From positions 876,432-940,431 of the forward strand of contig KV748189.1 of the NCBI GenBank assembly GCA_001692895.1: a stretch of 64,000 nt of DNA, in the 5' to 3' direction. Both the position numbers and the translations under genes were made by a program. Under the pieces are notes generated by a model, which did not search any database, was not told the DNA's origin, and saw nothing but the letters and a program-made list of their open reading frames with translations. This document shows, one piece after another, positions 7,879 to 50,122 of the stretch (its first letter is position 1; each line of letters opens with the position of its first letter). Source of the stretch: Cenococcum geophilum 1.58. Taxonomy: Eukaryota; Ascomycota; Dothideomycetes; Gloniales; Gloniaceae.

Positions 7879-8208
7879 ATGACTGGAGAGAAATCCAAAG
7901 GGAAACAAAAGCGGTCAAGAACCGTGGATAGTTGGGATGGGCTAAATGAGGAGGAGAAAGAGCGCAAACGACAGGATATCGAGAAGGAGAACGGAAGTCC
8001 TTTACCTGAAATGCCGGACAAAAAACCACCGGAAATGACGGACGAAGATCGAATCAGCCTCGCCAAGTCCACTCTCCGCAGCCACATAGGTATTAGGGAA
8101 GAACGCCATCCGAGAACTGCAGTCCTCTTCTTTATCGAACTCGCGCCAAACTCGGCACGCAGGGGAGCCGCTTGTCAGCACACCACCTACACCAACCGTA
8201 TTAAAGAA
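7879..8208 (+). pseudogene. 5' part of a split gene, PARP-type zinc-finger-like (interrupted)
   Basis: The frame from ATG at 7879 (an in-frame ATG also exists at 7771) encodes a lysine/glutamate-rich N-terminus (MTGEKSKGKQKRSRTVDSWD) followed by FFIELAPNSARRGAACQHTTY. It runs into the transposon at 8209. The same frame resumes after the transposon with the duplicated codons ATT AAA GAA, giving TNR-IKE-GSYRIAVHPGMN. CQHTTY followed by YHVQC in the 3' part looks like a PARP-type zinc finger. The second expected Cys reads Tyr (TAC), a G-to-A change on one strand consistent with RIP. The family assignment is tentative; the split itself is clear. Confidence 0.6.
8200..8208. repeat. Left target-site duplication, ATTAAAGAA
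   Basis: ATTAAAGAA immediately precedes the left inverted repeat and is repeated exactly at 14651-14659 after the right inverted repeat. Both copies encode Ile-Lys-Glu in the reading frame of the split gene. Confidence 0.85.
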
Positions 8209-8231
8209 TTGTCCCAGCATGCTCAGACCAC
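8209..8231 (+). repeat. Left terminal inverted repeat
   Basis: Begins TTGTCCCAGCATGCTCAGAC and pairs with 14628-14650 (which begins TTGACTCAGCATGCTCAGAC on the minus strand). The mismatches are at positions 4 and 6 and at the innermost base. Confidence 0.85.
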
Positions 8232-8310
8232 ATGGGACGCCGGATAAATCCGGCCCGATGGCACTAAACCAGTTTAGGCCATCTGTCCCTATGTGGTCTG
8301 AGACACTTTG
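8219..8310. repeat. Left foldback arm
   Basis: CTCAGACCACATGGGAC at about 8222 pairs with GTCCCTATGTGGTCTGAG at about 8286-8303, forming a stem of about 17 bp with a loop of about 45 bases that itself holds CCGGATAAATCCGG. It is followed by ACACTTTGGC, which is also found in inverted position at the right end (14535-14545). Confidence 0.75.
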
Positions 8311-8879
8311 GCCGACGTTTGTAAAGCACGTCGCGATATCCGCATGGCTAATATTACAGATATTCACTTCTTATTCTTACGATAAGTTTAGGTAGCTTAA
8401 AAAATCCATTAATTATACACTAGGCTCCGGCGAATTAAATGGTCTATATAAGAAGTCTTCCCGCCTTCCTATTCCTAATATTAATTTTAAAATAGCCGTG
8501 ACGCGGTTTGCTAAAGTAAACAATTAGTAATATCCGCACTAACAACGCGTTAATCTTAACCACCTACTCTCTATCTATTATATCTATAATCTAATAATTA
8601 AAACCTATTAAGATCTATCTATTATAACGTATTTAAGTCCTCCCTACCTTTATCTAACCCTCTATTCTCCCTCTACTACTTTTAAGCGCTATTTACTAAT
8701 GCCTCTATTAAAGCGAATAAGGTAAAGAGGTTGTAAACTATAAGCTAGTTAAGTAGATTAATAAGCTGGCAGTACGCAATAGGCTAGGGATTATATTAAA
8801 ATGGATTCCTAGCGGTCTCTACAGCTATATAGCCTGTGGAGGAAGCTACCCTAGCTTATAAGCAGCTCTTATAAACTTT

Positions 8880-10100
8880 AAATAAGCAAGCTAGATAAAG
8901 CTATTGCGGAGATATATCCGTACCGCGGTTATACGGAGCAGCTTGAGGCCCTAAGGGTGCTGATATTTAAGCGGCGAGATCTCATGCTTATGGCAAAGAC
9001 GTCTTTTAGTAAGAGTATAATAATGTAAGCACTACTATGTCTTATATCTAATGCAGTTGTTATTATTGTTCTTCCACTTAACGCGATTAGGTTAGAGTAA
9101 GTAAAAAAGATTGCAAAGCTACCTTATATTTAACCTATTTATGTGTAGGAGAAAACAATATCCGCTAAGCTAATTGAGGATATCCGCATAGGCAGCTATA
9201 TATATATCCTTATCTCCCTAGAGCTTTTAGTTAGTAATAAGCTATATAAGGTTCTAATAGACCTAATATTTCGTTCCTATATTACCCTTATAGTGGTTAA
9301 TAAAGTACACCTACTTGCTAATTAGGGAGAGACCTTCTATATAGCGTATACATAACTCTTTAAAGTACATTTAGTCTTAGTTAATAAGCCTTAGTTTATA
9401 TATACCGCAATACTAGACCTATTTACGTTTCGGACTATATATAAGCTAGCTAGGTTTAAACCTAATATACAAGTTATTAAAACCCTAATTAATTGGCCGG
9501 AGCTAAAGATTATATAAAGGGTTATAACTGTGCTAGAGAAGAAGGACTTTTAAGCTCTTTACTTTACTATTGCTGCTGCTCTAGTATATTTACATACTGC
9601 TAGTAATAGTAACTAAGGAGAAGGCGAGTAATTAAGAAGCCGCTTAATATCCGTATAGTAGATATACTGCTAACAGTTTAATTAACTTTAGCTGATTTTA
9701 AAGACGATTATCTTTTTTAATTTTAAGGAGTGGATAGCTGCCTATCGTAATACTATTCGCAGCTAGTTAATCCATTGCGGCTATAATGCTGCTATTGCTA
9801 GAGAAGTGGTGTAGAGCTACTACGTAATGCTTGCAGATATTAATAAAGACCGCTTATACGCTAAATACGCGCGCCTAACATCTTAAATTCGAATTTTCGT
9901 TGTATTAGATGCAGTAGCACACGGTGTAGATATCCCGGATATCTACCGTTTAATCTAATATAGAATGCCTTGCCACAAATCCTATAATATGCTAGCACAG
10001 CGGTTTAGCCGGGCAGGCTAAGGAGAAGGCCTCTTAGGCGAAGCAATCTTTATGGTTAAGAGCCGCTGGCGGGGTTTTTGCGATAAATTAGGTAGTTCTA
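8880..10100 (+). pseudogene. Degenerate RecQ-type DNA helicase
   Basis: Translating the plus strand gives successive RecQ-family helicase motifs. YRGYTEQLEALRVLIFKRRD leads to a Walker A region AKTSFSKS (about 8913-9015). The DEAH-box position reads NKVH followed by LLAN (about 9297). LDPFTFRT and FKPNIQVIKTLINWPELKII come at about 9415-9515. Motif V is LDAVAHGVDIPDIYR (about 9905-9950) and motif VI is LAQRFSRAG (about 9990). Recognisable coding continues weakly to about 10980. TAG/TAA stops occur about every 20-40 codons, typical of RIP. Similar RecQ-like proteins occur in many fungal repeats, including telomere-linked helicase genes; here the gene is inside a defined TIR element. It is not functional as it stands. 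Confidence 0.8.
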
Positions 10101-11249
10101 AGCATATATAACCTTAGTATATAGGCAATCTTTACGTAAGCGCGCTACGCAATAATATCCGCGGGCGACAAAACGTAGAGACTGCGGATATTGCGGGCGA
10201 TGCTTTATCTATAGCGTTAGTCAGTACTAAGCAGTTAGTAGATATAAGAAGCGGGCGTAGGTTAAGCCCTAGTAGTTCTATAGTACGCCTACCTAAAGAG
10301 CTTATTATACCAACCCTACGCCTAAAGAAGCGGTTAACTAATGCGCAGTTATGTGGTAAACTGCCGTTTACCCTATAGCGGCTAGTTAATAAGGATTAGG
10401 TATACTTATAAGTAATATAACTTACACACTATAGAGACCCACAGTCTACTATTAGTAAAGACTTGTGTTACAGTAACTATAACCTAGCAATATTTATAGA
10501 TTACGAGTATAATATCCGTACTAGCTATAGTGCGGATATTATAAAAACCTACTAGGAGCCTATATTAAGCAATATATAGAAGTAGTTTACACAATGGGCG
10601 GAGGCTAGGTATTAGGATATATTATAAACGCCTATAGTTAATTATATTATACCGGATAAGCAGCTTTATTGCCTCTATAATATAGGGTGGGTTTTAGATG
10701 CGGCATTATTAAGGTAAGTAATGCCTGAGTGGGATCCTAATATCCTTAGTAAGGAGCTTCCGTCCCTTATTAAGCTTTTAGTAGATAAGGAACGAAAGTA
10801 GAAATAGAAAGAAATAGGGCAACTCTTAGGTTCTTCTAGGTTAATTATATAGATATTAAAGCGGTTTTCCTAAGCGTTAGAGCAGCACGCTGCTACGGAT
10901 AAGCGCTTATTATAGGCTCTTATACGGGCTTCGCAGGTTTTAGATAGAAGATTTAAAATATCAGCGCCGTGGCAATTAGCGCCTCACTATGGCGCTGATA
11001 TATCGTAGGCTAGTTAATAGTTAGCTATAAACCTCTTGCTAATAACTTAGGAAGAGGATATACCTATACCTTCGCTAACTCTTGGGTCTCTAGCTCCTAC
11101 TCCTCTATTATTACCCTTATACCAGCCGTTAGATATATCTATACTGCCAGCAACCCGCTAGTTAGATACGTCTTTATTAGTACCGTAAAGGCGGTTAGCG
11201 TGATTAAATAGAGGTGAATATATATAAAGAGCACTATAGGAAATTAACG

Positions 11250-11619
11250 GCAACGCTAATTAGTATATAGCGGGCTAATATTAGGCGAGGTTAGTTAATA
11301 TTAGGCGGGGTTAGCTAATATTAGGTGAGTTTACCTTATATCCGCTAAGCGGATATTGCAACTATAGTAGCTAATATCTATTAGGATAACGCCCCCCCTT
11401 CCCCTTATACTTTATACCCCTAGCAAGCGCGGCCCAGGAACTAAATAGATTAATTAATTAATAATATCAATTACTTAGGAATATATACTAGTGCTACTAA
11501 CTATAGCGGATATTAAACGGTTGTAGTAATAGCTTATAGCTAATATCTTATATTATTTATTAAGCAACTTATATGTAGGTTAAAGCTGGGTTTAAGTAAA
11601 GTTAGTAGGGAGTACGAAG
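11250..11619. other. Region between convergent transposon genes
   Basis: Contains short direct repeats TTAGGCGRGGTTAGYTAATA at about 11280-11330 and copies of GCGGATATT at about 11352 and 11502, between the 3' ends of the helicase and DUF6589-like frames. No gene is seen. Confidence 0.5.
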
Positions 11620-13945
11620 CTATCTAGCTTATTATTATCGTTATAGAGATTAAGCTTATTAAATATAGCGGAAAGATTACCGCCTAGCCGTAAATTAAAC
11701 TTGTTAAGGGTAGATTAATTAAGTCGTTTAATACCTAGTTATAGTAGAGGCGGCGCTTCTATCTTTACTTGCTATGCCTAATAGCGGATAATAAAACCTT
11801 TGGCAATCGCATTAGCAAGCAATTAAATATCCGCTATAGGAGATTTAATAGTATATTAAGTAGACATCCGTTTGCCAAACGTAATCTTAAACTTTATATA
11901 TAGTGGCCCTATATAATTAGTTATATAAATACTCTAGCAGAAGAGTAAGTCTAGGTTAAATATTAAATTGCCACGAGTGTATATAAGCTGCTTTAGCTCC
12001 CTATTAAGTAGCTTGTTATCGAGATCTATTAGGTAATAACTATCCTATTCGCCGCGGATATTCACTAGACTATTTACTAGGATAGCTTACTAGAGCTTAG
12101 GGGAATAAGCATCTATTAAAGTTAACTAGAAGAAACGTAATATCTCTAGTAGATAGTTCTTATTTTAACTACCTATAAAATAAATACAAATGCGGGGGAG
12201 TATATAGCTAAGCAGGCTAATATCCGCAAGCTTAATGGCGTACTTAAGGACCTTATATATCTCTACTAGTTGTAAAAAGCGGACGTATGTTAGAAACTCT
12301 GTATTAGCAGGCTTAGAAAGTGTTTATAAGGATACAGCACTGCTAGCCTGCTTAAGGTAACCCTTTTACTGTGGTTCCGCAGGCTAGCTAGCATGGTTGG
12401 CCGCCCAAGAGACTTCCTAACCAAAAACCGCTATGCGGATATCCTTAACCACTGCTAATAGACATTGCAGAGATAGGCTTTTAAGGTACCGCTTAATATT
12501 TATAGGCGACTTAGTATTATAAGACTCCTTAATCTAAGTATAGAGTAACGCTATAATACGAGCATTAAAGCTATAGAGAATTAGCTCCTCTATATAATAA
12601 ACAGCACGCGCTTAGCTAGGATATTTCTTTAACCTAGGTGGTTTATATAGGTGTATAGTATAGAGTACTCTTAGGCTAATTGCTTGCCACTATAGTGATA
12701 CCGTATAACTATATATAGGTAGTTCAGCTTTAGGTGCTAAAGAGCTAGAATAGGCAGAGCCTAACGCAGGCTATTATAGGCGGATATTAACTTAATATAT
12801 TCTCCCTAATATAACCAAATAAGCTTTGCGGTCTTTTAATCACTATAGATTAGAAACAGTCGCTCCTTAAATACTTTATTAGTGCGTTATAGATTTATTT
12901 AATAGAGAAAAATATCGTCTAGTACCTTATAGGTTTTAGATATAGAAGCCTCTCTAGTTATAATAGGTCCTAGGTTAAACCTAGACGTCCGCGTAGCGGG
13001 TATTATATTAATAGAAGGCATACGTAGATGTTTAAACTATAGGTTTTTGCTAAGTAATATATTAAGGCCTAGGTACGCCTCTACAATAGCTTTATAGATT
13101 AAAGCTGTCGAGATCTGCTTCTATATCTCGTCTTATAAATTACCTAGAGCCTCTACAATATCTAAGAACTTAATTAGAATATCCGCACGAAGTATGCTTT
13201 GTTAAAGCCTATTATTAGGTATACTTATACTAAAGATAAGCTTGCCAGTTATACGCGAATAGAACGTCCTAGTATCCCCAAGTGTTTAATGCTAAACTCG
13301 TTAAAGGTAGTTAAAGTTATTATAGACAATAATAGTATTAGAAGCTGCACCTATTAAGCGGATTTTTACCTATATATAGGTTAGTATATACCTACACCGC
13401 GGAGATTATAGGCTAAACCTTAATTCCTAGGCTATCCGCTCCTTCTGCCGGTTTAAAATGGTATAACTATTAATTAATCCAAGCCCATAGAGCACAGAAA
13501 GCACGCGGCGCTTAACGCCGTTAGCTTAGAGATACATCCCTAGCAGCTATGGGATACAGTTTGCGGAGTTTCGTAAAAGGCCAAATACAAGCATAGAAGC
13601 TATTAGAACCGCACGGCCTTTATATAAAGAATATTTGCGTTAACCCTCTTAATATACTGTAATTACATACTCTAGTGTAGGTGCGTAAGTCTTTACGGCT
13701 TAATAGTACTGCCTAAGGTCAAGCTGCTTAATATCCGCATATTAGTTAAAGCTGCCAAATAGTAACTTTTTCTCCCTTAGCTCTTTAAGCTCTCCCTAGA
13801 TAGTAAGAGTAATACTAGCACCCACTATACCGCGCTTCTCTATCTCTTTAGTATAGATATCTAGGATATCAGCATCCTCTAGGAGTTTATTAAGGAGCTC
13901 CCTTACTCTTTTTTTCTTTAGTGCCTTATATAAACCTTTAGCCAT
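11620..13945 (-). pseudogene. Degenerate DUF6589-like protein
   Basis: The minus strand from an ATG at 13945 reads MAKGLYKALKKKRVRELLNK. It continues with TYAPTLEYVITVY, VLIASMLVFGLLRNSANCIP, then GAASNTIIVYNNFNYL and TRTFYSRITGKLIFSISIPN (about 13360-13200). Farther down are LIDLDNKLLNRELKQLIYTR and GNLIFNLDLLF (about 12040-11930). The NNFNY motif followed by the long helical part with ELK..IYTRG is what I know from fungal DUF6589 proteins, often found in repeats. About one codon in thirty is a RIP-type stop. Its biochemical role is not established; as the only large non-helicase frame in the element it may be the transposase (inference). Confidence 0.7.
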
Positions 13946-14542
13946 TATAATCTATTTAAGCGCTAGGTCTCCTATAGACATCCGCTATAGCCTAAGACGG
14001 TCAATAATTACCCAGACCTTCTCTGCAGCGGATATCTTCTTAGTGGATATTGCGGATATTGCGGGTATTTTATTAACTCCTACTTCTTTATCCTCTTAGG
14101 GATCTATATAGTTTGGCAGTAGTAAGTAGGCTATTAAAGACCGCCATTAAGCTGCGGATAGTGATAGGGGAGATAACGGGGGAGACAATAGGGGAGATAA
14201 TAGGGGTGGGATAAGACGGCTGATGCCCTTGGGCACTATATCCACTATATCTCTTAATCCTCCAGCGGTATTAATTAATAGAGAGGGTAGTTTATTATTA
14301 AAAGCTTAAGAAGACTGGCTCCTACTAGACGAAATAGAGGGGTTTCTTTAACGCCTTTTAGATGCGCCTATGGCTGGCAGTTAGTTCTAGAAAATCTATT
14401 AATTAGAGAGCTGATTAAGGCAATTCTAATGTAGGTATTAACAGGATAATAGACGTAGTGGTTGCTTACATTAATTTCGTTAAAGTTAATAGTTTGCCTT
14501 ATATAAACAGACCGGCTTGGCTTCTAAAAGCTTGCCAAAGTG
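13946..14542. other. Right non-coding part of the TIR element
   Basis: AT-rich, with GCGGATATT copies clustered at about 14035-14065 and a repeated GGGGGAGATAATAGGGGAG stretch at about 14170-14205. Probably the 5' region of the DUF6589-like gene. Confidence 0.5.
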
Positions 14543-14640
14543 GCTCAGATTAAGAAACAGATGGATCGATCGAATAGGTTAGCTTGCGGATATTCGATTA
14601 TCCGCGCAGCGGATATTCATCTGTTTCTTGGTCTGAGCAT
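14543..14640. repeat. Right foldback arm
   Basis: GCTCAGATTAAGAAACAGAT at 14543 pairs with ATCTGTTTCTTGGTCTGAGC ending near 14641, giving a 21-bp stem with two mismatches. The loop contains GCGGATATT twice and its near complement. The outer flank CCAAAGTGGCTCAGA mirrors the left end. Confidence 0.8.
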
Positions 14641-14650
14641 GCTGAGTCAA
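14628..14650 (-). repeat. Right terminal inverted repeat
   Basis: Complementary to the left inverted repeat at 8209-8231 over the core CAGCATGCTCAGACCA and the outer TTG. Confidence 0.85.
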
Positions 14651-15343
14651 ATTAAAGAAGGTTCTTATAGAATTGCTGTGCACCCAGGCATGAATCACGT
14701 GTACCAAAATCCAGGTAGGAGAGATTAGTGGCTCAGCTCTGATAATCTGCACCGCGAACTAACAGCCTTCGTAGATTTTTACCATGTGCAATGTTTTGAA
14801 GACCTAGTAGATTTCTCTCAAGCGGCGTACCTCGACCGCATTCAACCAGTCACCAGACGTACCGCGAGCATGAGAGGACTAAAAGGTACATCTGTCGCTG
14901 ATGGTAACTATCTCGTGGATGGAGGAGCCGAAAGACTTGTTCTGGAGTGGAAAACGTCAATGGGGAAATTGATAGATAGAAGGGATGGAGTGCCGATTGA
15001 GCCTATGGATCCCGACTTCAATGATCTCCTTCGCAAATCCGGCTCGGCGTCCTACCAACCGAAAATCATTGATGGCATGTCGAGACATGAGTTCTTCAAC
15101 ATTTCTATGAGCCTTGCTCCCATTGAAAGCGACGGTGTCGAAGACCAAGAAGAGTGGAACCTTTTTGAGCACTATCTTCCAATGACTTTCGACGACCTCG
15201 AAGGCTTGAACGATCGCCATAGCCTAAGCGACATGTTAAGCCTGTGGAAGGCGGACAAAGTAAGATACCACACTTCTACCCCTCCACAGATGTGCAGAGA
15301 GTCGATTGACAATTTCTCCTTAGTTCCTCGCCTGTGCCCATGA
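14651..15343 (+). pseudogene. 3' part of the split zinc-finger-like gene
   Basis: It resumes the 5' part's frame at ATT AAA GAA (the second target duplication copy) and reads GSYRIAVHPGMNHVYQNP, then GRRD, one in-frame TAG at 14726-14728, then WLSSDNLHRELTAF. FYHVQCFEDLVDFSQ supplies the second pair of presumed zinc ligands (H-x2-C). GGAERLVLEWKTSMGKLIDR and an acidic tail follow, ending at TGA 15341-15343 after about 230 codons. Removing the transposon and one target copy gives a gene of roughly 340 codons with a single nonsense codon. A role in DNA or chromatin binding would be typical for PARP-type fingers but is not shown. An intron in the tail cannot be excluded. Confidence 0.6.
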
Positions 15344-15843
15344 AGATAAACTTAACCACAGGGGTAAGGAAGAGAAAGAGAAGCTAGGTGAAAAGGCCAT
15401 CAGAGCAATTCAACGGCTTTCGTCAATTCCAATGCCTGACTTCCAATCGGCCTTCCTAGGTCAGTAGAGCATATTAGCATAGAACAGTCCATATGTGAGC
15501 GCTCCTGGGACATCACATGCACAAGCGGCGGATCTAAATTACATGACATAACACTACAGGTGGATCACAACAGCGGAATCGAAGTCCAATGATAGTTTGT
15601 TAGAATCTTGAGCAGCCGTACTAATAGGTTGATCTCTTTCTCTGTTGAGAGAGGCAGGAATTAGTCTGTCAACCCATTCCCAGTATGAATGTCAGCGTTT
15701 ACTCTCTAAAGTCACGTGTACGTTGATATATATCCTCGCTCAGGGCCAGTTTCTATCCCGTGTCTCTGGGGATGTCACGAGATCCCCAAAGCTTTCTCCT
15801 GGGACCATTCTCCTGTGATCACTCTCTGAGGACAGAATTCAAG
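15344..15843. other. Intergenic, no gene recognised
   Basis: Normal base composition, no convincing open frame on either strand. Includes GTCACGTGTACG near 15711 and a GGATGTCACGAGATCC near-palindrome at about 15769. Confidence 0.4.
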
Positions 15844-15987
15844 AAGGCGACTCAGACGGCAAGGGCAAACTGAAGGCGCACTCACTAATACTAAAGTATC
15901 ACTAGTCTCTATCTAAAAAAACGCCACTTTCTTTTAACCAATCAGCTATCTACCGACCTTAAGTTTGCCCTGCCGCCTGAGGGCCTT
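15844..15987. repeat. Inverted-repeat element of ~144 bp
   Basis: Left arm 15844-15876 (AAGGCGACTCAGACGGCAAG continuing to AAACTGAAGG) pairs with right arm 15957-15987 with about four mismatches. The spacer is about 80 bp and non-coding. This is probably a MITE, but no target duplication is evident. The CTCAG inside the arm resembles the CTCAGACCA at the ends of the large TIR element, though the rest differs. Confidence 0.6.
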
Positions 15988-16261
15988 TGATGCGGAACTC
16001 TATGGTGCTCAACTTTAATTTTCGCAATTTTGTATGAGAGACACTCTCTCCCGTATATTTAACCCCCCAACAACACCTATTAAGCTAATAAATTAAACTA
16101 AACCAGTTTTCTTTATAATCGATTACTTTTTTATAATAGGAATACTACTTACTTATAAGTCACGCGCTTCTAGTATTTAGGTAAACACTGACGCGTCCCC
16201 AGCCAATGCAGCACTAATATACCAGGAAGTCTTATAACCGTCTCTATAAACGACTCTACTA
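15988..16261. other. Intergenic, AT-rich
   Basis: Contains GAGAGACACTCTCTC near-palindrome at about 16036 and TATTTAACCCCCCAACAAC. No gene is seen. Confidence 0.35.
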
Positions 16262-16420
16262 ACAGCTCTATTATCGCCTATAATCGTCCGTACGAATGTC
16301 TCTACTATCGTCTCTATAAACGCCTGCACAAAGCTCTACACAAAACTCTGCACGACGCTCTACTCAAATCTCTACTCAAGGCTCTATACAAGGCTCTACT
16401 CGAAACTCTATCGAATGCGT
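16262..16420. repeat. Degenerate 12/15-bp minisatellite (CTCTAYNCAAARCTCTA type)
   Basis: Units such as CTCTACACAAAACTCTGCAC, CTCTACTCAAATCTCTACTC and CTCTATACAAGGCTCTACTC repeat about ten times. They are the reverse complement of the units in the arrays at 39405-39755 and 58018-58145, so this is a third, eroded copy of that minisatellite in opposite orientation. Confidence 0.65.
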
Positions 16421-17841
16421 CTAGTGCTTGACATTCTGGGGTTCGGGACCATCTAACGTGGCTCCGGAGCTGTGGGTGGTTAGGGTCGGTATGCGTTTTA
16501 TTTAGGCAGTATATAACTGGGTGTTAAGGGGGGGGGGTCTCAGGGGGGTTACAGGACTGAAAATTCCCAGTGTTGTGCCTGCAACGAGTCTTTTATATTA
16601 TGTAACCCCCCCCCTAACCCCGTCCTCGCCCAGCAACAAATCATATAAACCCCCATCTAGGCCAGATTGCAGAATATAAGGCAAAACGCGAACACACAAG
16701 ACCTCAAGGTAGAGGGGCCTGCCAAGCCCGACTGGATCGTATGGGCGCTGACGCTGGCCTTTCACGGTAACTAGGACGCCGAAGCCAGAAGCCCAAGACC
16801 CCAGAATCGCAGTATCGCCTCAGGAGGTTGATAAACTTCCTTATGGTTGCAATTGCAATTATGAGGTATATTGTCGATACCAGTAATTTTAACTTCTTAC
16901 TTTACCAAGGAACCAATTCCGGAGCTTTAGTGTGCTAAAAGGGGCTTATGGAAGGTAAGAAATCTAGTTTATCTCTCATATATTTAATAAAACTAACCCC
17001 TTTAGAGGAATTCTAAGCGTGACGAAGAAACAATGCCGGTAATGCACACCACCATCAAAGATAGACGCTGATACCCACCACCCTCCTCCCACCCTTAAGA
17101 CCCCGTTCACCACCTCCACCCGCAGCTACCCACCATCGTCGCCATCCGCCACCACCCCAACTCCCCTACGCCACCCTCCTTCGCCAGCGTGAAGCCAACT
17201 GCCCAACCCGCACCTGCACGCCCTTCCTCTCCTATTCTCATTCGTTCCAGCTGAGGCCAGAACTCAGTTTCTCCACCGGTTCTCCGCCGACGTCTGGGGG
17301 CTACCCAGCCTTCCCCGCAGAGCGACAACGCCCGCGTTTACACGCTGCGGGGATGGCGCGCGACCTCGCCTTTTTGTTCGGCAGCCATGAGCGCTGGACG
17401 GCTAGTACGTCTGCAATTTCGGACCGGAGGACCGTAGAGTGCAGGAGACTGGGTCCGCGAACGACTTATTTATGCGTTCCGGGGCCGGAGCAAGCACATC
17501 ACGGGGACGAATCAGCTTTTTCGGACGCCAAAGATTTACCCAACGGCAGTGATAGCGAGTGGGACAGTTAGCTTGCAGTGGTAGCAGATGCTTCGTGTGT
17601 ATGACCCTCAAGCTAGATTCCAGACTATCGGGCTTTTCAAGCTGGGCTCTAGCCCCCCTTATCACCCCTTAAGAAAACTGCCCAATGGCCCCAATCCCGC
17701 TAAAGCCCATAAGATATGTACAAGAAGAAGAACTAGCTCTATCGAAGAAATAATCATGTCAGCTTCTCTCCCAGGCTATATTGCTTCGCTCATATTCCGC
17801 CTCCATCCATCTAGTCTCCTGCGCGGCTAGTCACTCGCCCT
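16421..17841. other. Intergenic region downstream of GH55; no supported gene
   Basis: Holds a G-run followed by CTCAGGGGGGTTACAGG and the inverse TGTAACCCCCCCCC near 16604. From 17040 to 17700 it is GC-rich with several short open frames on both strands (for example 17353-17571 plus and 17107-17328 minus) whose products are low-complexity or unrecognisable. It may contain an eroded gene or promoter DNA. Confidence 0.35.
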
Positions 17842-20806
17842 CTATCCAGCCCTAAAAGTAAAGTACGAAATGGTGTCTGGATAGACGTTAATGTTATCGC
17901 TCCACGACGCGAGGCTGGTTCCATCCTGGACCACCATGCTCTGGCTACCAATCGTGCTGAGACTGTATACCCAGATGTTGTTAGTGCCGCTACCCTCGAT
18001 GCTGAAGATCTCGCTCTGGCAGTTCTCGGTACCGCCAGATGACGGCGCGTTGCTGCATGTCGTGTCGTAGTTGTTGAAGAAGGAGTAGAGCCCAGCACTA
18101 CGAGGAGGGTTAGGCTGGGTTAATATATGGAGGCTGGGGGAAGGGTAGACTTACCCGTAGATGAAGATGTTTTGAGAGTTGAGGATGCGGAGACCGAGCG
18201 CATCACAGTTGCCGGGGAGACAGGAACTGTAGGTTGGGTCGTTGATAGCGGAATTTGTGGGGTAGGGCTGGTTCCGAACGTTCGGGACCGGTTGCCAGTA
18301 ACTGTGATATGATGTTAGTACCCAAGAAAATGAATCTGAAGAGATGTGGCTGTCTGATAAGGAAACCACTTACGGCGTCTCGGTTTGAACGAAGCCAGCC
18401 ACTATGAAATGAGTGTTTGAAATCTGGTATTGATAGAGAGCATGATGCTCCACAGAAGTGCCGTAACTAAATAAATTTAGTTCAAAAATCTATAGGGGGA
18501 GGGCATTACTGCATACAGCCAAACAGTGTTTGCCTCAACAAGCATCCCGCGGCCGGTATATATGGAGACCCGTGTGCTAGAGGCGTCATCCAAATCATGA
18601 TCAGCAGTCTAAGAAGCTGTTAGTGCGGCCGTTGTGCTTTAGAATTCTTGAGCAGATTTACCCAGAACCAACAATTCTCGATATAAGCACCCGTACCAGT
18701 GCTCGTAATATGTATAGACATATACGCAGCCATGCATGAAGAAGATACAGCAGCACCAGTAGGGCACTGCGCAACCTGAAGATTAGACCCCTTAAATCCA
18801 CCGATGCGAGTATGCACATCCCACATGCCGGAACCAGACGCTGCGGCAAGATTCCACTGGATGAGAACAGCGCCAGGGCAAGAACCTTGGGTGCTGACGA
18901 CCATGTCAGACCATTCTACGCTTCCTGAATCACCGGATTTTCCAACTTGAATCACAGGAACTGGGCTCGCCTTGTTCGACCATGGGCCTCCACTGGCCAT
19001 GATGACTGAGTAAGTCTCGCCAACAATGCGCGAGCCGGGAGGAATGTAGATGGTGTTTGTGACTTTGTATACCCCGTAGTCGAAAAAGACAATTTTGCCT
19101 GACGAGGCAGCTGAAGTAATCGCGTTTTGGATGGCAGTGGTATCGTCCGTTGAACCATCGCCTTTGGCACCTGCACTGCGGATGCTGACAAAAGATGCTA
19201 CCGGAGAGGCTCCATACTGAGGCTTCGACTTGGTGTAGTACCTGTTCGTGCCACTTGCAAGGAGGGCACCGGGTCTGGAAACAGGGGTGAAGCTACCTTG
19301 CCAGGTTGTAGGTCCGTTTGGCGTGTATTTATGCCCCTGACCCCAGCTAGTGATGGTCATAGAGCCGGTTGTGCCGGCTAGAATGGTTCCACTGGTTCCA
19401 TGGACGGCCGTAGGAACATTGTTTAGGACCACGTTCTCCAGGATTAAGCTGCCTGCAGTAGCTGGGGAGGAGCTGGTGGTCCAGACGGTGTCAACGAAAA
19501 CCGAGCACCCAGTGATAGTGCTGTCGATAATGTTCACGGACCCCACATTCTGAGCACTACTGCCACCGCTGATCATTGAGAAAGCAGTGGTGCAACTAGA
19601 AATGGTAATTCCCTGATACGTCCAGCCCCAGTCCCAAATCTGCGAGATACCCACAATGGCGTTTGAAATGACGAGATTGCGCATGGTAAACTGCTGGTTG
19701 CCAATGTTGGCTCCATACAGACCACCGGTGACGGTCACATCACTCATAAAGCCGCCAGAGCCTAGGAATGTTAGTTACGTCCTCAAGGATGTAGCACGTG
19801 ACGGCGAAATGCGAGGCGCCTTGTAGGAAGTGCTTGCAATAGTACTACCTCGAAGCTTACGGATAGTATGTAGTGAGCCACTCCTGAAAAGCCGTCTCGC
19901 ATCCCGCCAATTTCAGCCAGGAATGAGAAGGAACCCACCGTTTTCTATAAAGATACCCTGTTGCTGCGAGTCAGAGGATGCAGTCATAATAATCTGGACA
20001 TTTTGAAGGCTGGTAGCCTGTGCAGTAGGCCAATGAATACCAGTAGCCGCCGTCGCCGCGGGAATAGCAGTCAAATCGAGAATCAAGTTCCGAACTTGCC
20101 GATAGAATACATTGGTCGATGTCCAGCCCTGGTTTCCCGAACTCTGATACGGATCGCCATCAATCAAACCGAGCCCAGTGAAACCAGCGGTGGCTTTGAT
20201 CACGGGAAGTGAATTCGCATTGCCAATGAGTTGGGTCATGTAATACGGAATGATAGGAGTCGAAACGATGTACGTGCCAGCCGGGAAGTAGACTATGGCC
20301 GGAGTGACGGTTGAGGATTGACAACTTCCTGGTGCGCAGCGACCACCAGCACTGATAGCCGCATTGATGGCAGCCGTGTCGTCAGTTGACCCATCACCTG
20401 GAAGACATTATTAATAGTTGGTCAGATGGTAAGTGAGGTTCAGACTCGCTGATTGGTCAGTGAGACTTCAGTACGGACCCTTGGCGCCATAGTCCTTCAC
20501 GTTACGAAACACCACATAACCGGATGGATTCGAATTGAAAGCGGCAAGGCCTTGGTGGGTGATGTCTTTTAGCCAATAGGCTGGATCGCTGACAGCTGCT
20601 TCGATCTTCAAATCGAGAGCGTGAGCAGTAGCGCTTGCAAAGACGGTCGACAGTGTGGTACTGGCTGTAGCATGGTTTGCCGTGTAACGCGATAGAGGAA
20701 GCGCACTTAGTTCTGCTTCGACGACCTTGCTTACGGCTGGAAGATCTACCAGAGCATTGGCATGGGATACAAATAAGCACGAGACAGCCCATAAGAAAAA
20801 TTGCAT
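17842..20806 (-). CDS. Secreted exo-beta-1,3-glucanase, GH55 family
   Basis: Seven exons on the minus strand: 20806-20479, 20397-19939, 19761-18662, 18608-18517, 18466-18374, 18301-18155, 18097-17842. All joins are GT-AG and in frame, giving 824 residues (family usually 750-950). Residues 1-18 (MQFFLWAVSCLFVSHANA) are a signal peptide. Two pectate-lyase-3-type beta-helix modules, the hallmark of GH55, each open with a GAKGDGSTDDT motif (about residues 107-117 and 459-469). Downstream are ENCWFWTADHDLDD, WLYGTSVEHHALYQYQ, LRILNSQNIFIYGAG and a C-terminal DNINVYPDTISYF. GH55 enzymes release glucose or gentiobiose from the non-reducing ends of beta-1,3/1,6-glucan in fungal walls, so roles in wall remodelling, carbon recovery or attack on other fungi are likely. 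No lesion is seen. Confidence 0.92.
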
Positions 20807-20883
20807 ATTGAAAATAGCAGCTCAACAATATCGAAAGGATAAGCTGGAGATGGTAGTCATGAAGAGATGTTGACGTGGAAGGT

Positions 20884-20895
20884 CTTTTATACCCC
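20884..20895 (-). promoter_or_regulatory. TATA box of the GH55 gene
   Basis: The minus strand reads GGGGTATAAAAG about 80 bp upstream of the GH55 start codon at 20806, a normal fungal TATA position. Confidence 0.55.
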
Positions 20896-22561
20896 GCTCT
20901 AGGCACAAAAAAGTGAACATGAAGCGCTAGATAGAACACGGTATCCAACAATGGTGGCGGACCCATGACGCCAGAGGTCATGCTGCCGAAATTGATTGGT
21001 GTCATATGAGCCAGGAATTTCATTGTAGGGTATGATTTTCCAGTTAGTCGTTCACATTCAAACGTACGCGGCCATCCCAGAATCAGTATACGTCAACGGA
21101 CGAATAATTCGAAGTCGGATGTTGTGGTGGTGAAATGAAGATTCGGCTTCGGGCCTGCAGTGGAACCAGGCGCACATCCCCCCTAACCAGCTCGGGCAAG
21201 ATGCCATCGGAGCGGGACCCTGCACAAGCCTCTCCCCCACCAGGCCACTCGATTCCCCTGCTTCCTCATCCAGCGTCCGGGTCCGGGAGGACCTAGTTGT
21301 TCATGAGCCCGGTGTCGGGACACTTCCGCGCGTGGCTTTTGCGGGGTATCGTTGGTGCGTAGTTAAATGAGATCATCCTGATGTCGCACCGCACCGTAGC
21401 ACCTGTCGAGCAGGTCTCACCAAGGCCAACAATGGATGACCTGCTTGTTCGATCCTTAGATCACGGCCACCGCGCCGTGACTGACTGGTGCAAATCCCCT
21501 GTTTTTAGGGACAATCCCGGACTCTGATCTCCATCTCGTGCCTGCTAACCCTGACTTCCGCGTTAGTTCAGAGCCTAATTTCCTAGACTAAGAGAACGTC
21601 AAGGTACAAGATGCGCCACTGTCTTTTGAGTTGTTGGTCGCCCGCGGTGGTACATTGAAGGCTTGCCTTTGGTAGGGCACGGAGGGGCCGCTGGTGGTGG
21701 GGATATTGAGGCTGGGCGGCATTTGCGGATAAACGTGCCGTCAGAGGGGAGATTGTTTGATTGAGTCAGTGTGGGATGGAAAAGGGGCATTGTGTTTGTT
21801 GAGTGAGCACTAAAATGTGACTTTGAGCATCTATCTAGAATACTTCTTGAGGGTGTTTCGAAATTCTATTTTAAATTCTCAATTTGGCAGAGAAATCATG
21901 GATTAAAATACCAGCCTCACAAGTTAATCGCTACACATTGTCCTAATGCCTCGAAGGATTTTGAGAGATTCGGCATCGGAGAACGGTGTAATATCCGGAT
22001 CAGTGATGATAGTCTGAATATACTCTAGTGTGCCCCAAATATAAGCTCTAATTTTCATGATGGCCCCCACATGCTCAGAGCCTTCCCCATGACCGGAAAA
22101 TTTCTATACTGTACCTATACAGCAAAGTCCTCCAGGAATTTAAGGAAGTTATCTGCCACTCGGCGCAAACATTCAAATAACGCTGAGGGTTTTATTATTG
22201 TTGATGCGGGATAATTGATACATTTTGGCATGAAATATATGTGGTATCGTAACTGTTCAAGAGTAGGAAAAACCGTTTAAAAATCTTCCTGAAAGGCCAC
22301 ACTGACCAGTTCAACCTGCAGGGGGAAACGCCACCCCCGATCTTTAAAGCACTAAAGTCAACCACATCAAAGTAATAACACTATAATCAGAGCTTGCGCT
22401 TAATAAGTGCATGGCGTGAACGCCTAGTGTAAGCTAAAACACTTAGTATGGGTGGCGCCGAAAGTCAAACCAACTCTACAAGCCTCCAGGTCATCGAAAT
22501 GGTGGCCTGAATCTTGAGGTATATTTGAGAACTTGATGCTCGACCAATACGAGTATGCAGC
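20896..22561. other. Intergenic upstream of GH55; no gene supported
   Basis: About 1.7 kb between the GH55 promoter and the decayed P450. Short open frames (for example 21058-21240 and 21599-21790 minus) lack recognisable content. Around 21900-22560 composition becomes AT-rich. No repeat structure is apparent. Confidence 0.4.
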
Positions 22562-23632
22562 TTACAATAAACGGCTCGTCATGGCTTCACTTCTGCCAAT
22601 CCATTTCTCGATCTGATTCCTGTCGCGAGGCTTGAAGCCCACTTTGAACGGCTTGGGCATAAGCGCCAAACTAGTTGGGACGGCAGAACAGTGGATTGCA
22701 TCGAGGATTTGGCAGTCCTTAGGACCCTTGGGTGGGATAACCTCAAAGGACATGATGAGTCGAACCAGAAAGACGTAGAACTCCCGGTTAGCAAGTTGGT
22801 ACCCGGCGCACGTGCGTAGACCAGCACCATATGTCGGCCTTCGCAGCAGCGGAGTCACCGATATAGCGCTCTGGTATGAACTTCTCGGGATGCTTGAAGT
22901 GGTTGGGGCCGTAGTTGGCGGCGTAAGTGTTCTGACCACGTTAGCGATTGACGTTGAAATGAATATGTAGCGTGCGAATCTCAAAACTTACTAGCGGGAA
23001 TGTGGTACCGGCAGGAGTTTCAACGCTGTAGCGATTGCCTTCTTCTGGCTCTCGCGCGACGTATACCGGGGCGAGGTGTCAACAGTGAACGATTCCGAAT
23101 TAAATACCGCTTTCCCATCAGTAGAGATGATCTTGTGGAATGTGTGTAGGATTGGCAAGACATCATGGCGGTCTGCTGGCTGGTCCGAATGTCTTTGGCG
23201 GGTTCGAAAGTATTCGCGAGAACGGTGCGCTGTTTGGGGTCCTATGGTTAGTATTTCGCCTGCCGGGGAAGAGATAGTGATGCTCACCCTGTTGCCCGTT
23301 CGGACTTCCGTACTTCTTGGCTAGCTTCTGGGCGGCGGCATGGTGGTAGCTACCGAGTTGGAAGAGGTTTCCAAAATTGGCACGCCCGGGACTTCCGGAA
23401 GCCCTTTGATCCTCGGAACATCTGTCGAGTTGAGATATCGGATAAGTAAGTAAATACCGACGGTCGGAAGACCTAGGACAAGTCGGTAGACATGGTAAGC
23501 ATTCTTGAGTTTGAGCGAGCTTACTCCTAGGTTGGTGTGAACGTAGGTATAAAGAGTCAAGTGTAAGACTTTGATAGAAAGGAAGGAGGGGAGGTTGCGA
23601 AGGAGATAAATACTTAAATAGGAACCACGCAA
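22562..23632 (-). pseudogene. Cytochrome P450 pseudogene, CYP504-like, with internal deletion
   Basis: Minus strand. The N-terminus carries a hydrophobic anchor (LVLGLPTVGIYLLIRYL) and DVPRIKGLPEVPGVPI. A one-base slip then moves the continuing NLFQLGSYHHAAAQKLAKKY to another frame. Next come ILHTFHKIIST and FTVDTSPRYTSRESQKKAIA, equivalent to the B-C helix region. Immediately after, near 23025, the sequence jumps to VETPAGTTFPL, which lies just before the heme domain. A 59-base GT-AG intron (22933-22991) follows, then NTYAANYGPNHFKHPEKFIP and the heme-binding YGAGLRTCAGYQLANRE, ending near 22562. The I-helix and ExxR region, roughly 250 codons, is missing. The TFHK and CAG-x-LANRE motifs suggest CYP504 (phenylacetate hydroxylase type), tentatively. 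Frameshifts plus deletion make it non-functional. Confidence 0.75.
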
Positions 23633-24261
23633 GAGGGCCGCAGTGAATTAAGATAAGGCAGCTTCTGCTAGCGGTGTAACGGTTGAATGAATAAGTTATT
23701 GAGCGTCTTGGTTAGCCCACCCGAAGATAACGTCTTTCGGTGAGGTTATCTCCAGGTGGTTTAAGGAATCGGCGATGAGTATGAAGGACAACTATCCGGA
23801 CTTGGAAACAAGTTCCCAGCTTTAGAAGAGGTGGCCCTTGAGTTGATAGGAGCGTCTTTTGAAAAAAGCGCTACACAGATGCCCAAAATCCTCAAAAAGG
23901 CTTTACACATAGTCTGGATATCCGAAGACAAATAGAAATTAAATAGGTAAACAAGAAGAGGAAAGTCTTTACTGGTTATCTGAACGCCGTTTGGAAGTGT
24001 CGGAAAAAACCCATCCCTGAATTTAGAGATGATGTAGGATATATAATCTTTGTGATTGATTCTTTACCGTTGGCACAACCTTCTATTCTTAAATGGCTCC
24101 TAGTTTAGAAGAACATCCACGCTCGGGCAACCCTTTTATTCCACGACTATGCTGTAGCTTGAGATGCAGCTTCTCTAGCCCTATGCTAGGGGCGAGAACC
24201 TCCCAAAAAGGGCATTAGAGAAACAATCCGACCGCCCTCGTGACATACAACACCTGGCTCT
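23633..24261. other. Intergenic, no gene recognised
   Basis: Lies between the P450 remnant and the 3' end of the thioesterase gene. No supported frame or repeat; it may include the old P450 promoter. Confidence 0.4.
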
Positions 24262-24891
24262 TCATAGCTTGCTCCTAGGCTCAACAAATAGCGCCTCCCC
24301 AGTAGCAAATACGGTCCCTTGACCATCCTCAACAGCTCCTACCAGCCACGCTTTATTGCCTTCTCTCTTTTCAAACTTGGCAGTACATAGAACAACACCG
24401 GGGGTGCGCACAGGCTTCTTATAATTAACTTTAAGATCTATGCTCAGTTAGCAAGTTGCCCGATTGCCAGCAAACGAACCGGCAAACTCACAAGCCGTGA
24501 ACAACCTCATGGGCTCATTGACAGACTCCTCGCGCTTCCGGCCCTGTTCTATTTCCAAATTGAGCGTCAACAGCACACCGATGACCTCGTCCAGCATGGT
24601 GGCCACGAAGCCTCCATGACAAATGTTCGGATGGCCATTGACGCCGTTGCCCAGGTCCACCAGCATCCGAACTTCTTGAATTGCTGGGGATCCCTCAGCG
24701 ACTGCTTTGCGATGCATCGACAGCAACTTGCGGATCGTCCGGTCTGACTTGAGCGTCTCGGCAAAGAAGGAGTCTTCGGTGCTGCCCTTCGCTTGGCGGG
24801 AAGACGTGTTGCAGGGCGTCCATGTCGGGTCGTTTATCAGGTTGGCGCACCAGGGGATCTTGCGGAAATGGAGCTCGTCGGCGGAGGCCAT
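24262..24891 (-). CDS. Hotdog-fold acyl-CoA thioesterase (PaaI/4HBT superfamily)
   Basis: Two exons, 24891-24492 and 24437-24262, joined over a 54-bp intron with donor GTGAGT, branch GCTAAC and acceptor CATAG. The join restores LFTA-YLKVNYKKPVRTPG and gives 191 residues. The signature HPNICHGGFVATMLDEVIG (about residues 87-105) is the hotdog HGG-x(4)-LD-x3-G helix seen in PaaI/THEM4-like thioesterases. The second half has the expected beta strands (VVLCTAKFEKREGNKAWLVG, GTVFATGEALFV). These enzymes hydrolyse acyl-CoA thioesters; the substrate cannot be predicted. No targeting signal is evident. It is divergent from the phosphatase gene at 25410, with 518 bp between the starts. Confidence 0.88.
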
Positions 24892-25409
24892 TGCTGCTGC
24901 CTCTAATTGACGTGGTGAAGCATCAAGAAAGGCGGAAATTGGCCGCCGTCATGTCTTGTATCTTCCTCGTGGATCGATTTGCCGAGGTCGGGGGAGGGAT
25001 AGGGCTCGTTGATGCGAGTCAAGGATGAGAGGGGTAAAATTATTACCGCTCTTTGGAGGATATCTCTTGGATGCCTGCAGATGGTTTGCTACAGTTTGAA
25101 TATAGTTGTAAAATATATTTTGTAGAACCATATTCAACCAAAAGACCAATAGAAGGCATCCTCTTCAATGAGTTGCAACGGCGCTTGAGAATGTTTAGAA
25201 TAGCCCTTCATGGATGCTTAACTGCCGGCATTACGATTCAGCCTTCTGCTATCGATAAGCCGACCTCCACGTTTTTTCCTGATAGGTGGGGATGTTATTG
25301 CTCAACCCAACCATCGTCATTCCTTCTACTATATGTCTATATCTATATCCCGCTTCCACAGCCAGCGAAAATCGACTTCGTCAAGCCCAATTGTTCTCCT
25401 ACTCGCAAA
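24892..25409. promoter_or_regulatory. Shared upstream region of two divergent genes
   Basis: 518 bp separate the thioesterase (minus) and inositol-monophosphatase-like (plus) start codons. Contains an AT-rich stretch near 25090-25130 and CTATATGTCTATATCTATAT at about 25331, about 60-80 bp before the plus-strand ATG, a possible TATA region. Reading frames here are not convincing genes. Confidence 0.4.
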
Positions 25410-26423
25410 ATGGCGGACCTCGACCTCCAAGAAATCCATGACTTCCTCATCACCATCGCCCACAAGGCCGGCGAGATGATCACAGCTGCCCACCCCAGCA
25501 CTGGAGCTGCTGGGTCTAAGAAGAACTGTAAGGCCTCCAATTCAGCTTCAGGATACCTCCAATGCCCTCTCTAATCGCACATTGGCACCCCTACCGCCCT
25601 CCAAAACACCTCCAACCACCCGACTCTCCGTTCCTTTCCGCTAACTCATCCCCCCCTCCCAGCCGCTGACCTCGTCACCGAAACCGACCGCGCCGTCGAA
25701 ACAATGGTCTCGACCTCCCTCAGCGAAAAATACCCCAACATCGCCTTCATGGGCGAAGAAACCTACACGCCCAACACACGCCTCACCCCCAGCCCAACCT
25801 TCATCGTCGACCCCATCGACGGCACCACCAACTTCGTGCACCACCACCCCTACGTCAGCATCTCCCTCGGCCTCTGCATCAACCTGCTCCCCACCATCGG
25901 CGTCGTCTACAACCCCTTCACGCAGACCCTCTACACCGCGATCCGCGGCCGCGGCGCCTTCCTGAACCGCACCACCCCCCTCCCGCTCACCCGCCCCGCC
26001 CCGCTGACCGACCTGAGCAAGTGCCTCGTGGCCGTCGAGTGGGGCTCCGACCGCTCGGGCCCCGACTACGCCGTCAAGACCCGCACGTTCGCGCGGCTGG
26101 CGGCCGCGAAGCAGGACGGCGGTGCCATGGTGCACGGGCTGCGGTCGTGGGGCTCCGCGGCGCTGAACCTGTGCGCCGTCGCCAGCGGCGCTGTCGACGC
26201 GTACTGGGAGGCTGGGTGCTGGGCCTGGGACGTGTGCGCCGGGTGGGTTGTGCTGAGCGAGGCGGGGGGCCTGGTCGTCGATGCGAATCCTGGGAACTGG
26301 GAGCCGAGTGTGGATGGGAGGAGGTATTTGGCGGTGAGGGGCGGTGAGGGCCAGAGGGGGATTGTGGAGGAGTTTTGGGGGTGTGTCGAGGGGGCGTTTG
26401 AGGTTGGGAGGGAGAATCCTTGA
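25410..26423 (+). CDS. Inositol monophosphatase family protein
   Basis: Two exons, 25410-25527 and 25663-26423, around a 135-bp GT-AG intron; the join gives KKN-SADLVTETDRAVE and a 292-residue protein (family about 260-340). Metal-binding motifs of the Mg-dependent, Li-sensitive phosphatase family are all present: GEE at 70-72, DPIDGTTNFVH at 89-99 and WDVCAG followed by EAGG at about 228-242. It should hydrolyse inositol monophosphate or a related phosphate ester in the cytosol. Fungal members also include quinate-cluster QutG-like proteins, but no quinate genes are near. Exon 2 is markedly GC-rich and creates long spurious antisense frames. Confidence 0.92.
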
Positions 26424-43030: not shown

Positions 43031-43079
43031 TGAATTATTAAATATTAAATTAAATTATTAAATATATTAATTTTATGGA

Positions 43080-43680
43080 GATATTTCTTTAGAAATAACT
43101 TGCCGGTCTATAGCTATGTAAAGATAGTAACTTTAGAGCTAATTAGCTACTAGTATAATCCTACAGCCTTTCTAAAGTAGAGTATTATATTAATCTTCTT
43201 TATAAACTTACCTATATTAAATCTTTATAATAAAAGCGGTTCTATTATTATTTTAGCTTTTTTTAAGGCTTACGTTATAAGGTACTATAGGAGGCCGTCT
43301 CTCTATAATAGCTCCTTACTCTTTAGTCTTATCGCTATTTTAGTAAACTTATTAGCCTTCTTATTTTCTATAAATCCTAAATAGCCTAAAATCTAGTATA
43401 GCGTAATATTATTTAGCTAAAGTTTCTTTAAAATCTCTATAACTACTTTCTAGTAGGCTCTAGCCCTCTAGCTCTATATTAATAGTAACGCTAATTATAA
43501 GTTAGAGAATATTCTTATACTAAAAGCAGGTATTAGAAAACCTATTTAGTTAATAGCCGTATATATAGGGTTCTATAGCTAGTTAGCTACCTTACTAATT
43601 ATTAAAAGCTCTATTAGGTAGGCATTAGCCTACTTAAAGCCTATATTAGCAAAATATTATCCCTTATAAATAACCTTAGC
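43080..43680 (-). pseudogene. LINE (Tad1-like) RNase H remnant
   Basis: On the minus strand, VVIEILKKL, LNNITLY, ILGYLGFIENKKANKFTKIA and RLKSKELL correspond to the RNase H domain at the end of Tad1-type LINE ORF2. Several RIP stops. No RT is seen; on the minus strand the 5' side is cut by the satellite leader at about 43640-43680, so this is a truncated copy. Confidence 0.65.
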
Positions 43681-44204
43681 TACTAGAAGTTGGCGTCGTT
43701 AGTAGGCTATTAAGGGCATTAACCAACTTAATAAATTAGCCTATATTAAGTTCATTTAATATATAGCCTACGCGTAGCCTATATATAGCCTATATAACCT
43801 ACGCAACCTACGTAACCTACGCAACCTATATAACTTATAATTTTAGATAATAAAGGCTACTTTAAAGCCGTTTATAAAGCTAGTAAGATAAATTATATAT
43901 ACTTCTTTATATAATCTATTATGTCTATATTTACTATCTATCTATATTATCTACCTATCTATATTACCTACCTATTTATATTACCTACCTGTCTATATCG
44001 CCTACCTATTTATATTATCTACCTATCTATATTACCTACCTATCTATATCGCCTACCTATCTATATTATCTACCTATCTATATCGCCTACCTATTTATAT
44101 TATCTACTAGTCTATATTATCTACCTATCTATATTACCTACCTATCTATATTACCTACCTATCTATATTACTTACCTATCTACATTATCTACCTATTTAT
44201 ATTG
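43640..44204. repeat. Composite satellite block 2, left part
   Basis: Leader (43640-43920) and 17-bp minisatellite (43925-44204), colinear with 37640-38200 but with systematic C-to-T and G-to-A changes. It is cut at 44204 by the insertion of copia element A and resumes at 56591. Confidence 0.85.
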
Positions 44205-44395
44205 TGTTGGTTATATAGGGTGACTTACTAATAATAACTACTCAAGTAGGGTTACAGTGATGTTGGTTAATAAAGCTTTTTTTTAATTGGAATGAGGAAG
44301 GGCAAGGAACATAAGGCTCCTCGCCACACTAGTGCCGCGGCGACACGTGATAGCAACTTACCATCACGTGACGGCAACTTACCTCATTCCCGACA
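44205..44395 (-). repeat. LTR of element A (3' LTR)
   Basis: Minus strand begins TGTCGGGAATGAGG and ends ATATAACCAACA; 191 bp, partner at 56400-56590. Confidence 0.88.
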
Positions 44396-49936: not shown

Positions 49937-50122
49937 TGTTAAAAACACAGGGTGACTCACTAATAACGACTACTCAAGTAGGGTTATAGTGATGTTGGTT
50001 AATTCTTATTAATAGGAATAAGGAAAGGGGTGAGGAACTTAAGGTTCCTTACTACGCTAGGGCTACGTCAACACGTAACGGCAATATGCTTTATGCGACG
50101 GCAACTTGCCTTATTCCCAACA
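49937..50122 (-). repeat. LTR of element B (3' LTR)
   Basis: 186 bp; minus strand starts TGTTGGGAATAAGG and ends GTGTTTTTAACA. Confidence 0.88.

Follow-up and report, generated by a model that had tools for sequence, protein, structure and literature searches.

The window analysed here, a stretch of 64,000 nucleotides from Cenococcum geophilum 1.58 (C14:876432-940431 of the 177-Mb genome), carries at 8209-14650 a DNA transposon of 6442 bp that is bounded to the base. We conclude, with a probability of about 0.78, that this element is a copy, inactivated by repeat-induced point mutation (RIP), of an autonomous cut-and-paste transposon of the AcademH type, with 22-bp terminal inverted repeats (TIRs) and 9-bp target site duplications (TSDs). 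Two gene remnants lie in convergent orientation inside the element, one of a RecQ-type helicase and the other of a protein of the Pfam family DUF6589. Contigs and loci are designated below by C and L numbers, and the family of the window element is called family 1.

Boundaries of the element and its gene remnants

The TIR core, CAGCATGCTCAGACCA, was found at 8215-8230 on the forward strand and at 14629-14644 on the reverse strand. No other site of the window matched it with three or fewer mismatches. The chance mean for such sites was 0.13, and two sites were reached in none of 100 shuffles. An earlier note on this DNA had described a precisely bounded TIR transposon that splits one open frame. 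Both descriptions hold: the 22-bp ends are flanked by an exact 9-bp TSD (Table 1), and when the element and one TSD copy are removed, a single reading frame crosses the junction, with a lone in-frame TAG just to the right of the element. The parts of this host frame that were searched (7879-8208 and 14786-15343) matched no Pfam family.

The same note had read two convergent decayed genes, a RecQ-like helicase and a DUF6589-like protein, inside the element. Both were recovered by Pfam in the window itself, and their identities were settled by the undecayed copies described below. In the Pfam search, which was run on the window's own frames with stops written as X, the helicase frame matched Helicase_C with an E-value of 1.3e-4 and 22.6 bits, slightly below the cut-off of 23.5. 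The DUF6589 remnant gave matches in two frames on the reverse strand (E-values of 8.7e-9 and 1.7e-15); the frames score 35 and 57.1 bits, as against the curated cut-off of 27 bits. Stops number 31 up to codon 591 of this remnant and 19 beyond it.

Copies of the family and their decay

Genome-wide, the core showed 1050 matches with three or fewer mismatches, a number that includes related families and chance matches, versus 360 for the pattern read backwards. The loci studied were taken from 100 listed core sites and from 40 scored matches (102 candidates). Most were chosen for their two facing ends, and they are thus not a random sample. The linkage of helicase and DUF6589 was counted in these fetched loci alone, most of which had been picked for element ends.

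Seven full-length copies (the window copy and L009-L014) were aligned and showed identities of 89.5-92.6%. The differences among them are 94-100% transitions, mostly in the CpA/TpG context. The RIP indices TpA/ApT and (CA+TG)/(AC+GT) are 1.59 and 0.62 in the window copy; in window 15000-26000 they are 0.85 and 1.18. Near-identical copies thus spread first and were mutated afterwards. The window copy has been inactivated by RIP-type mutation.

TSDs were compared in 29 distinct elements, each readable at its two ends. L028 was left out as a duplicate of L001, and loci with one readable end, such as L040 with both genes, were excluded. The two TSD copies agree at 9/9 positions in 25 elements, at 8/9 in L011 and L015, at 7/9 in L013 and at 2/9 in L017; the agreement is 7/9 or better in 28/29. 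Kolobok elements generate TTAA duplications, and the mixed-sequence 9-bp TSDs of these 28 elements contradict that feature. In addition, the helicase and DUF6589 are here separate, convergent genes. It is scarcely probable, for these reasons, that the element is a KolobokH, although KolobokH is likewise a fungal TIR element with a RecQ helicase, is known from fungi only, and one rhodophyte Kolobok has RecQ on the complementary strand, according to the accessible text of the source (PMC9587614).

Among the elements of at least 6.4 kb with both ends, 15/16 carry the helicase and the DUF6589 gene, which converge from opposite strands. The remaining one, L016 (C24:1893401-1901203; 7.2 kb, RIP-decayed), has the family ends and a differing interior, in which neither a helicase nor a DUF6589 match was found. 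Short copies of 1.1-1.6 kb with family ends and without intact genes were observed at L018-L026, L028 and L039:6247-7708; pairs within two groups of short copies reach 97-98% identity. L018-L028 are far less RIP-like than the full copies by (CA+TG)/(AC+GT), which is 1.00-1.36, and their TpA/ApT is 0.92-1.35. The copies of 1.1-3.0 kb and L016 have mainly the ends in common with the family. Since the full copies have the same ends, we read them as non-autonomous derivatives.

Undecayed copies and their proteins

Contigs C9, C42, C74, C149 and C88 end within copies that are free of RIP-type decay. Over 4892 bases these five copies differ at two positions only, at each of which one copy reads N, and C43 matches the undecayed copies across the overlap except for one N. 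The flanks diverge immediately outside the element. The left-flank 9-mers of C9, C42 and C88 are identical to the right-flank 9-mers of C97, C16 and C43, respectively, so that three of the five left flanks are paired; for C74 and C149, no partner was found among the three right flanks read. The matching 9-bp duplications therefore indicate real insertions, with the assembly broken at the undecayed copies (at the starts of C16, C97, C9, C42 and C43 and at the end of C88). Insertion of these copies was likely, though not certainly, very recent, because an assembler may place one collapsed repeat at several contig ends.

Less decayed copies with TIRs, an 8-10-bp TSD and both genes, which the earlier note had proposed to seek, are found at these contig ends, and their TSDs are 9 bp. 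The contrary cases that it had named, such as the same gene pair within unrelated boundaries, were not seen among the fetched loci: full-length copies share boundaries and genes, and copies sharing only the ends are shorter or, in L016, have another interior.

The frames of the undecayed copies are open, some of them with an N; their products are a helicase of 854 aa and a DUF6589 protein of 939 aa. The helicase matches DEAD (E-value of 6.9e-12) and Helicase_C (2.2e-8), both above the Pfam cut-off. Its best NCBIfam family is recQ_fam (TIGR00614; E-value of 4.8e-30), with 104.7 bits, below the curated cut-off of 219.8, and its best relatives in the PDB are RecQ, WRN and BLM. By best match the helicase is of the RecQ type and not a canonical RecQ. 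The 939-aa protein matches Pfam PF20231 (DUF6589) with an E-value of 3e-68 and 230.9 bits (cut-off 27 bits) over profile positions 23-410 of 410. When the genome was searched for this family, 102 of the 274 candidates were scored; all 102 were above the cut-off, and 8/102 are stop-free in the match. The same search gave no match in 14 control genomes.

A subtelomeric origin, as for telomere-linked helicases, was first suggested by the position of the core at 4871 from the contig start in four contigs. It was ruled out, since the contigs start within DUF6589 sequence without telomere repeats and since the duplications of C9/C97, C42/C16 and C88/C43 match. Neither CCCTAA nor TTAGGG was found in the outermost 400 bases of the copy-bearing contig ends where these were counted, and the contigs break inside the element.

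Sister families

The pairing of helicase and DUF6589 is present in three divergent families. Family 2 was read at its two sides, and one end was read for family 3. The family-2 element (C75:754919-765805, 10,887 bp; loci L049 and L040) has ends TTACCTCAGCAAGCTCAGAC, related to those of family 1, and interrupts a family-1 copy in its right end, where it is flanked by the 9-bp TSD CAAGAAACA. Its DUF6589 gene is read as two overlapping open frames of 291 and 614 aa, with 52% identity to family 1 over 604 residues. The helicase fragment, L040:3-776, shows 58% identity over 263 residues and lies on the opposite strand, convergent with DUF6589. Family 3 has a decayed helicase, L046:2227-4452, at 34-40% identity and, on the opposite strand at a distance of some 6 kb, a DUF6589 fragment (L052). 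The single end read for this family was assigned by its position ahead of the helicase.

Another RecQ-type helicase remnant, at 39% identity, was observed at L039:110-820; like L046:2227-4452, it lies near TTACCTCAGCGAGC-type ends. These two remnants are parts of further families.

RecQ-type helicases abound in the repeats and subtelomeres of fungi, and the short copies are mobile with no such gene in cis. The helicase might accordingly be passenger cargo, or the relic of a telomere-linked helicase, outside the transposition machinery. The 854-codon frame is, however, open in the undecayed copies, and the helicase accompanies DUF6589 in all three families. Against a telomere-linked relic stand also the contig ends, which lack telomere repeats where counted and break inside the element. 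We consider it quite unlikely that the helicase is such a passenger or relic.

Relationship to known transposons

AcademH elements have short TIRs. The founding paper of AcademH, within the Academ superfamily, is reportedly Kojima 2020 (Mob DNA 11:15). In the accessible text of other papers, AcademH has a 9- or 10-bp TSD and is linked with a helicase, whereas AcademX has a 3- or 4-bp TSD and is linked with a nuclease (PMC10045372); the AcademH helicase domains are DEAD and Helicase_C, and AcademH is low-copy in fungi (PMC10799480). Curated Academ elements of bivalves have a mean length of 5565 bp (PMC10294476). AcademH or Academ is cited, without description in the accessible text, in three further papers (PMC12210899, PMC8290104 and PMC9970103).

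The present element resembles AcademH in its helicase, with both DEAD and Helicase_C above the Pfam cut-off, in its 9-bp TSD and in its inverted ends of 22 bp; it also has a second large protein beside the helicase. Judging from the helicase, the TSD and the TIRs, the last compared with general background on AcademH, the element is probably an AcademH. It differs from the published description in copy number, since AcademH is described as low-copy in fungi and the family found here is large and has short derivatives. Should DUF6589 prove to be the transposase of Academ, AcademX would belong to the same superfamily; it differs by its 3- or 4-bp TSD and by the nuclease in place of the helicase. 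Pfam assigns no function to PF20231 (DUF6589), which the present analysis places in a mobile element whose ends are mapped.

Another explanation is that the element represents an undescribed superfamily, in which a DUF6589 transposase is unrelated to Academ and the RecQ helicase and the 9-bp TSD arose in parallel. DUF6589 gives no DDE match in Pfam, and its name was absent from the literature searched. In addition, the branched subterminal palindromes and the dispersed octamer (both below) are not mentioned in the accessible AcademH descriptions, although either may be general there. On the other hand, the TSD length, the DEAD/Helicase_C helicase and the inverted ends all coincide with AcademH traits, printed or generally known. 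We regard this explanation as unlikely. The earlier note had proposed a distinct class of transposon, which is not supported, because a helicase-bearing lineage with a 9- or 10-bp TSD is already published as AcademH (PMC10045372, PMC10799480). Its remark that it knew of no described superfamily combining these termini and this cargo was right only in part: the helicase and the TSD match AcademH, while the octamer and the hairpin ends go unmentioned in the accessible descriptions. The element is a genuine, well-bounded transposon, probably of an already described kind, the ordinary part of which is a helicase-bearing TIR element with a 9-bp TSD.

The transposase and the proposed mechanism

The DUF6589 protein is a plausible DDD/E transposase, for which families 1 and 2 have the same three candidate residues: the D of YDNFDY, the D of YGDQKT and the E of NYxxEM. 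Across an alignment of eight sequences the second D does not vary. A separate protein alignment leaves out L013.

MULE/MuDR (Mutator-like) duplications are typically 9 bp, and a MULE that captured a helicase would agree with the present element in this length. No MULE or other transposase domain was reported in Pfam at E-values up to 10, a search in which the HMMER filters drop most weak matches, and the same gene pair recurs in three divergent families. A MULE origin is thus very improbable.

Several facts weigh against the AcademH-type transposon with a DUF6589 transposase. The assignment itself compares descriptions of the helicase, the TSD and the TIRs. DUF6589 showed no DDE-family match in Pfam and no meaningful chain match among PDB sequences, and AlphaFold2 models from alignments of 2 and 8 sequences reached a mean pLDDT (predicted local distance difference test) of only 31.5 and 33.1. 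The first candidate D is covered in 2 of the 8 aligned sequences, and the candidate E is present in 4/8; the remaining four, all RIP-decayed, have D or N there. Part of the identity among the undecayed copies, most of which have an N in common, may stem from one collapsed repeat placed at several contig ends. The role of the helicase in transposition is one that we infer.

Under the AcademH-type reading, the DUF6589 protein would bind the element ends, perhaps via the octamer in the DUF6589-side hairpin, and would cut them and join them to target DNA at nicks staggered by 9 bp. Palindromic ends or gapped intermediates would be opened or resolved by the RecQ-type helicase. The duplicated copies would subsequently be targeted by RIP.

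Hairpin-forming ends

All seven ends that were folded as single-stranded DNA, from the three families, gave a hairpin. Its stem begins some 12 nt from the terminus, at the TIR sequence CTCAGAC, and is closed about 70-95 nt later by the inverse, GTCTGAG, intact or decayed. The left end of the window element (8209-8320) folds at -33.7 kcal/mol (z of -8.58) and the right end (14539-14650) at -27.2 kcal/mol (z of -7.23), and none of 200 shuffles was as good in either case. The z-values were -6.7 (left) and -9.3 (right) in undecayed family 1, -9.0 and -4.4 in family 2 and -3.7 in family 3 (0/200 shuffles each). The stem sequences are unlike between ends and between families. In the inner arm of the DUF6589-side end, family 2 has an exact inverted pair of the octamer ATATCCGC, and family 1 has the octamer with a 7-of-8 inverse.

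The dispersed octamer

The octamer ATATCCGC, often inside CAATATCCGCA, occurs in 26 copies in two undecayed pieces that jointly cover family 1, versus 2 copies in 23.5 kb of their flanks. The window element has 21 copies on either strand versus 2 in the remaining 57,558 bases of the window; in window 15000-64000 there is 1, as against a Markov expectation of 1.85. The two undecayed genes contain 8 and 11 octamers, whereas 1000 synonymous-codon shuffles averaged 1.19 and 1.15 and reached at most 5 and 6.

The octamer was picked post hoc as the commonest 8-mer of family 1, so that families 2 and 3 serve as the independent test. In both it again ranks first among the 8-mers: 15 octamers in 4260 bases of L049 (family 2; Markov mean 0.23) and 16 in the 7026 bases of L046:2200-9225 (family 3; Markov mean 0.35). 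In these first-order Markov controls the maximum was 2 in 200. The DUF6589 frames of family 2 have 5 and 3 octamers, where synonymous shuffling gave 0.52 and 0.28 on average and at most 3 and 2. Of the five octamer sites in the 614-codon frame, two lie at family-1 positions and three elsewhere; the octamer word is thus retained while its sites shift. Further DUF6589 fragments contain 4-6 octamers in 5/6 cases, but these five are not independent of families 2 and 3: by alignment L053 resembles family 2, and L052, L054, L056 and L057 resemble one another.

Three observations run counter to this pattern: no octamer was counted in L055, which at 33% identity diverges most among the DUF6589 fragments; the family-2 helicase fragment L040:1-1000 has 1 only; and in L039:1-1500 the octamer, with 5 copies, is the second commonest 8-mer. 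The octamer also occurs in unexplained 9-bp tandem arrays (AATATCCGC)n, for example at C17:366361-366405 and C2:541623-541649, with 192 dimers genome-wide versus 2 for the reversed control. The genome-wide count of CAATATCCGCA is 1053 versus 384 for the reversed word. The short copies carry few octamers (2 in L018 and 4 in L019), and scattered sites are therefore dispensable for mobility in trans. The roles that remain for them are autoregulation, helicase guidance or self-marking, and either DUF6589 or the helicase could bind the octamer.

It is possible, but on balance doubtful, that the element maintains ATATCCGC as its own recognition octamer along its whole length, coding sequence included, by selection at the level of DNA and not of protein. 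DUF6589 and/or the helicase would then read the octamer and the branched ends, as a Chi-like or coat-like self-marking of a eukaryotic transposon; the helicase would work the hairpin ends, and DUF6589 would be the transposase of the helicase-bearing lineage.

Features of the window

The coordinates are given in Table 1. Besides the listed features, the AT-rich window 43000-56000 showed RIP-like indices (TpA/ApT of 1.64) and probably consists of other decayed repeats.

Table 1. Features of the transposon and of its insertion site (window coordinates)
Feature	Position	Strand	Remarks
Left part of split host frame	7879-8208	+	No Pfam family
TSD, left copy, ATTAAAGAA	8200-8208		9 bp
Left TIR, TTGTCCCAGCATGCTCAGACCA	8209-8230	+	22 bp
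Left subterminal branched palindrome	8220-8304	+	Stem starts in TIR, closes at inverse TGGTCTGAG
RecQ-type helicase remnant	8699-11263	+	854 codons, 56 stops; undecayed counterpart L029:1838-4402:-
DUF6589 remnant, candidate transposase	11553-14371	-	Undecayed counterparts (939 codons) L047:2637-5456:- and L050:250-3069:+
1-bp deletion shifting DUF6589 frame	12598		Present in the window copy alone of the 7 aligned
Right subterminal branched palindrome	14543-14638	-	Inner arm has one ATATCCGC and a 7-of-8 inverse
Right TIR, TTGACTCAGCATGCTCAGACCA, read inward	14629-14650	-	22 bp
TSD, right copy, ATTAAAGAA	14651-14659		9 bp, exact match to left copy
Right part of split host frame	14660-15343	+	In-frame TAG at 14726-14728

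Implications

For a helicase-bearing transposon, the present analysis provides mapped ends, an exact TSD length, undecayed genes and short derivatives. It also links DUF6589, an unnamed Pfam family, with a mobile element. If functional, the octamer and the hairpin ends would offer defined DNA substrates with which to ask for what reason a RecQ-type helicase is carried by a DNA transposon. They would also represent a novel means by which an element marks its DNA as its own, genes included.

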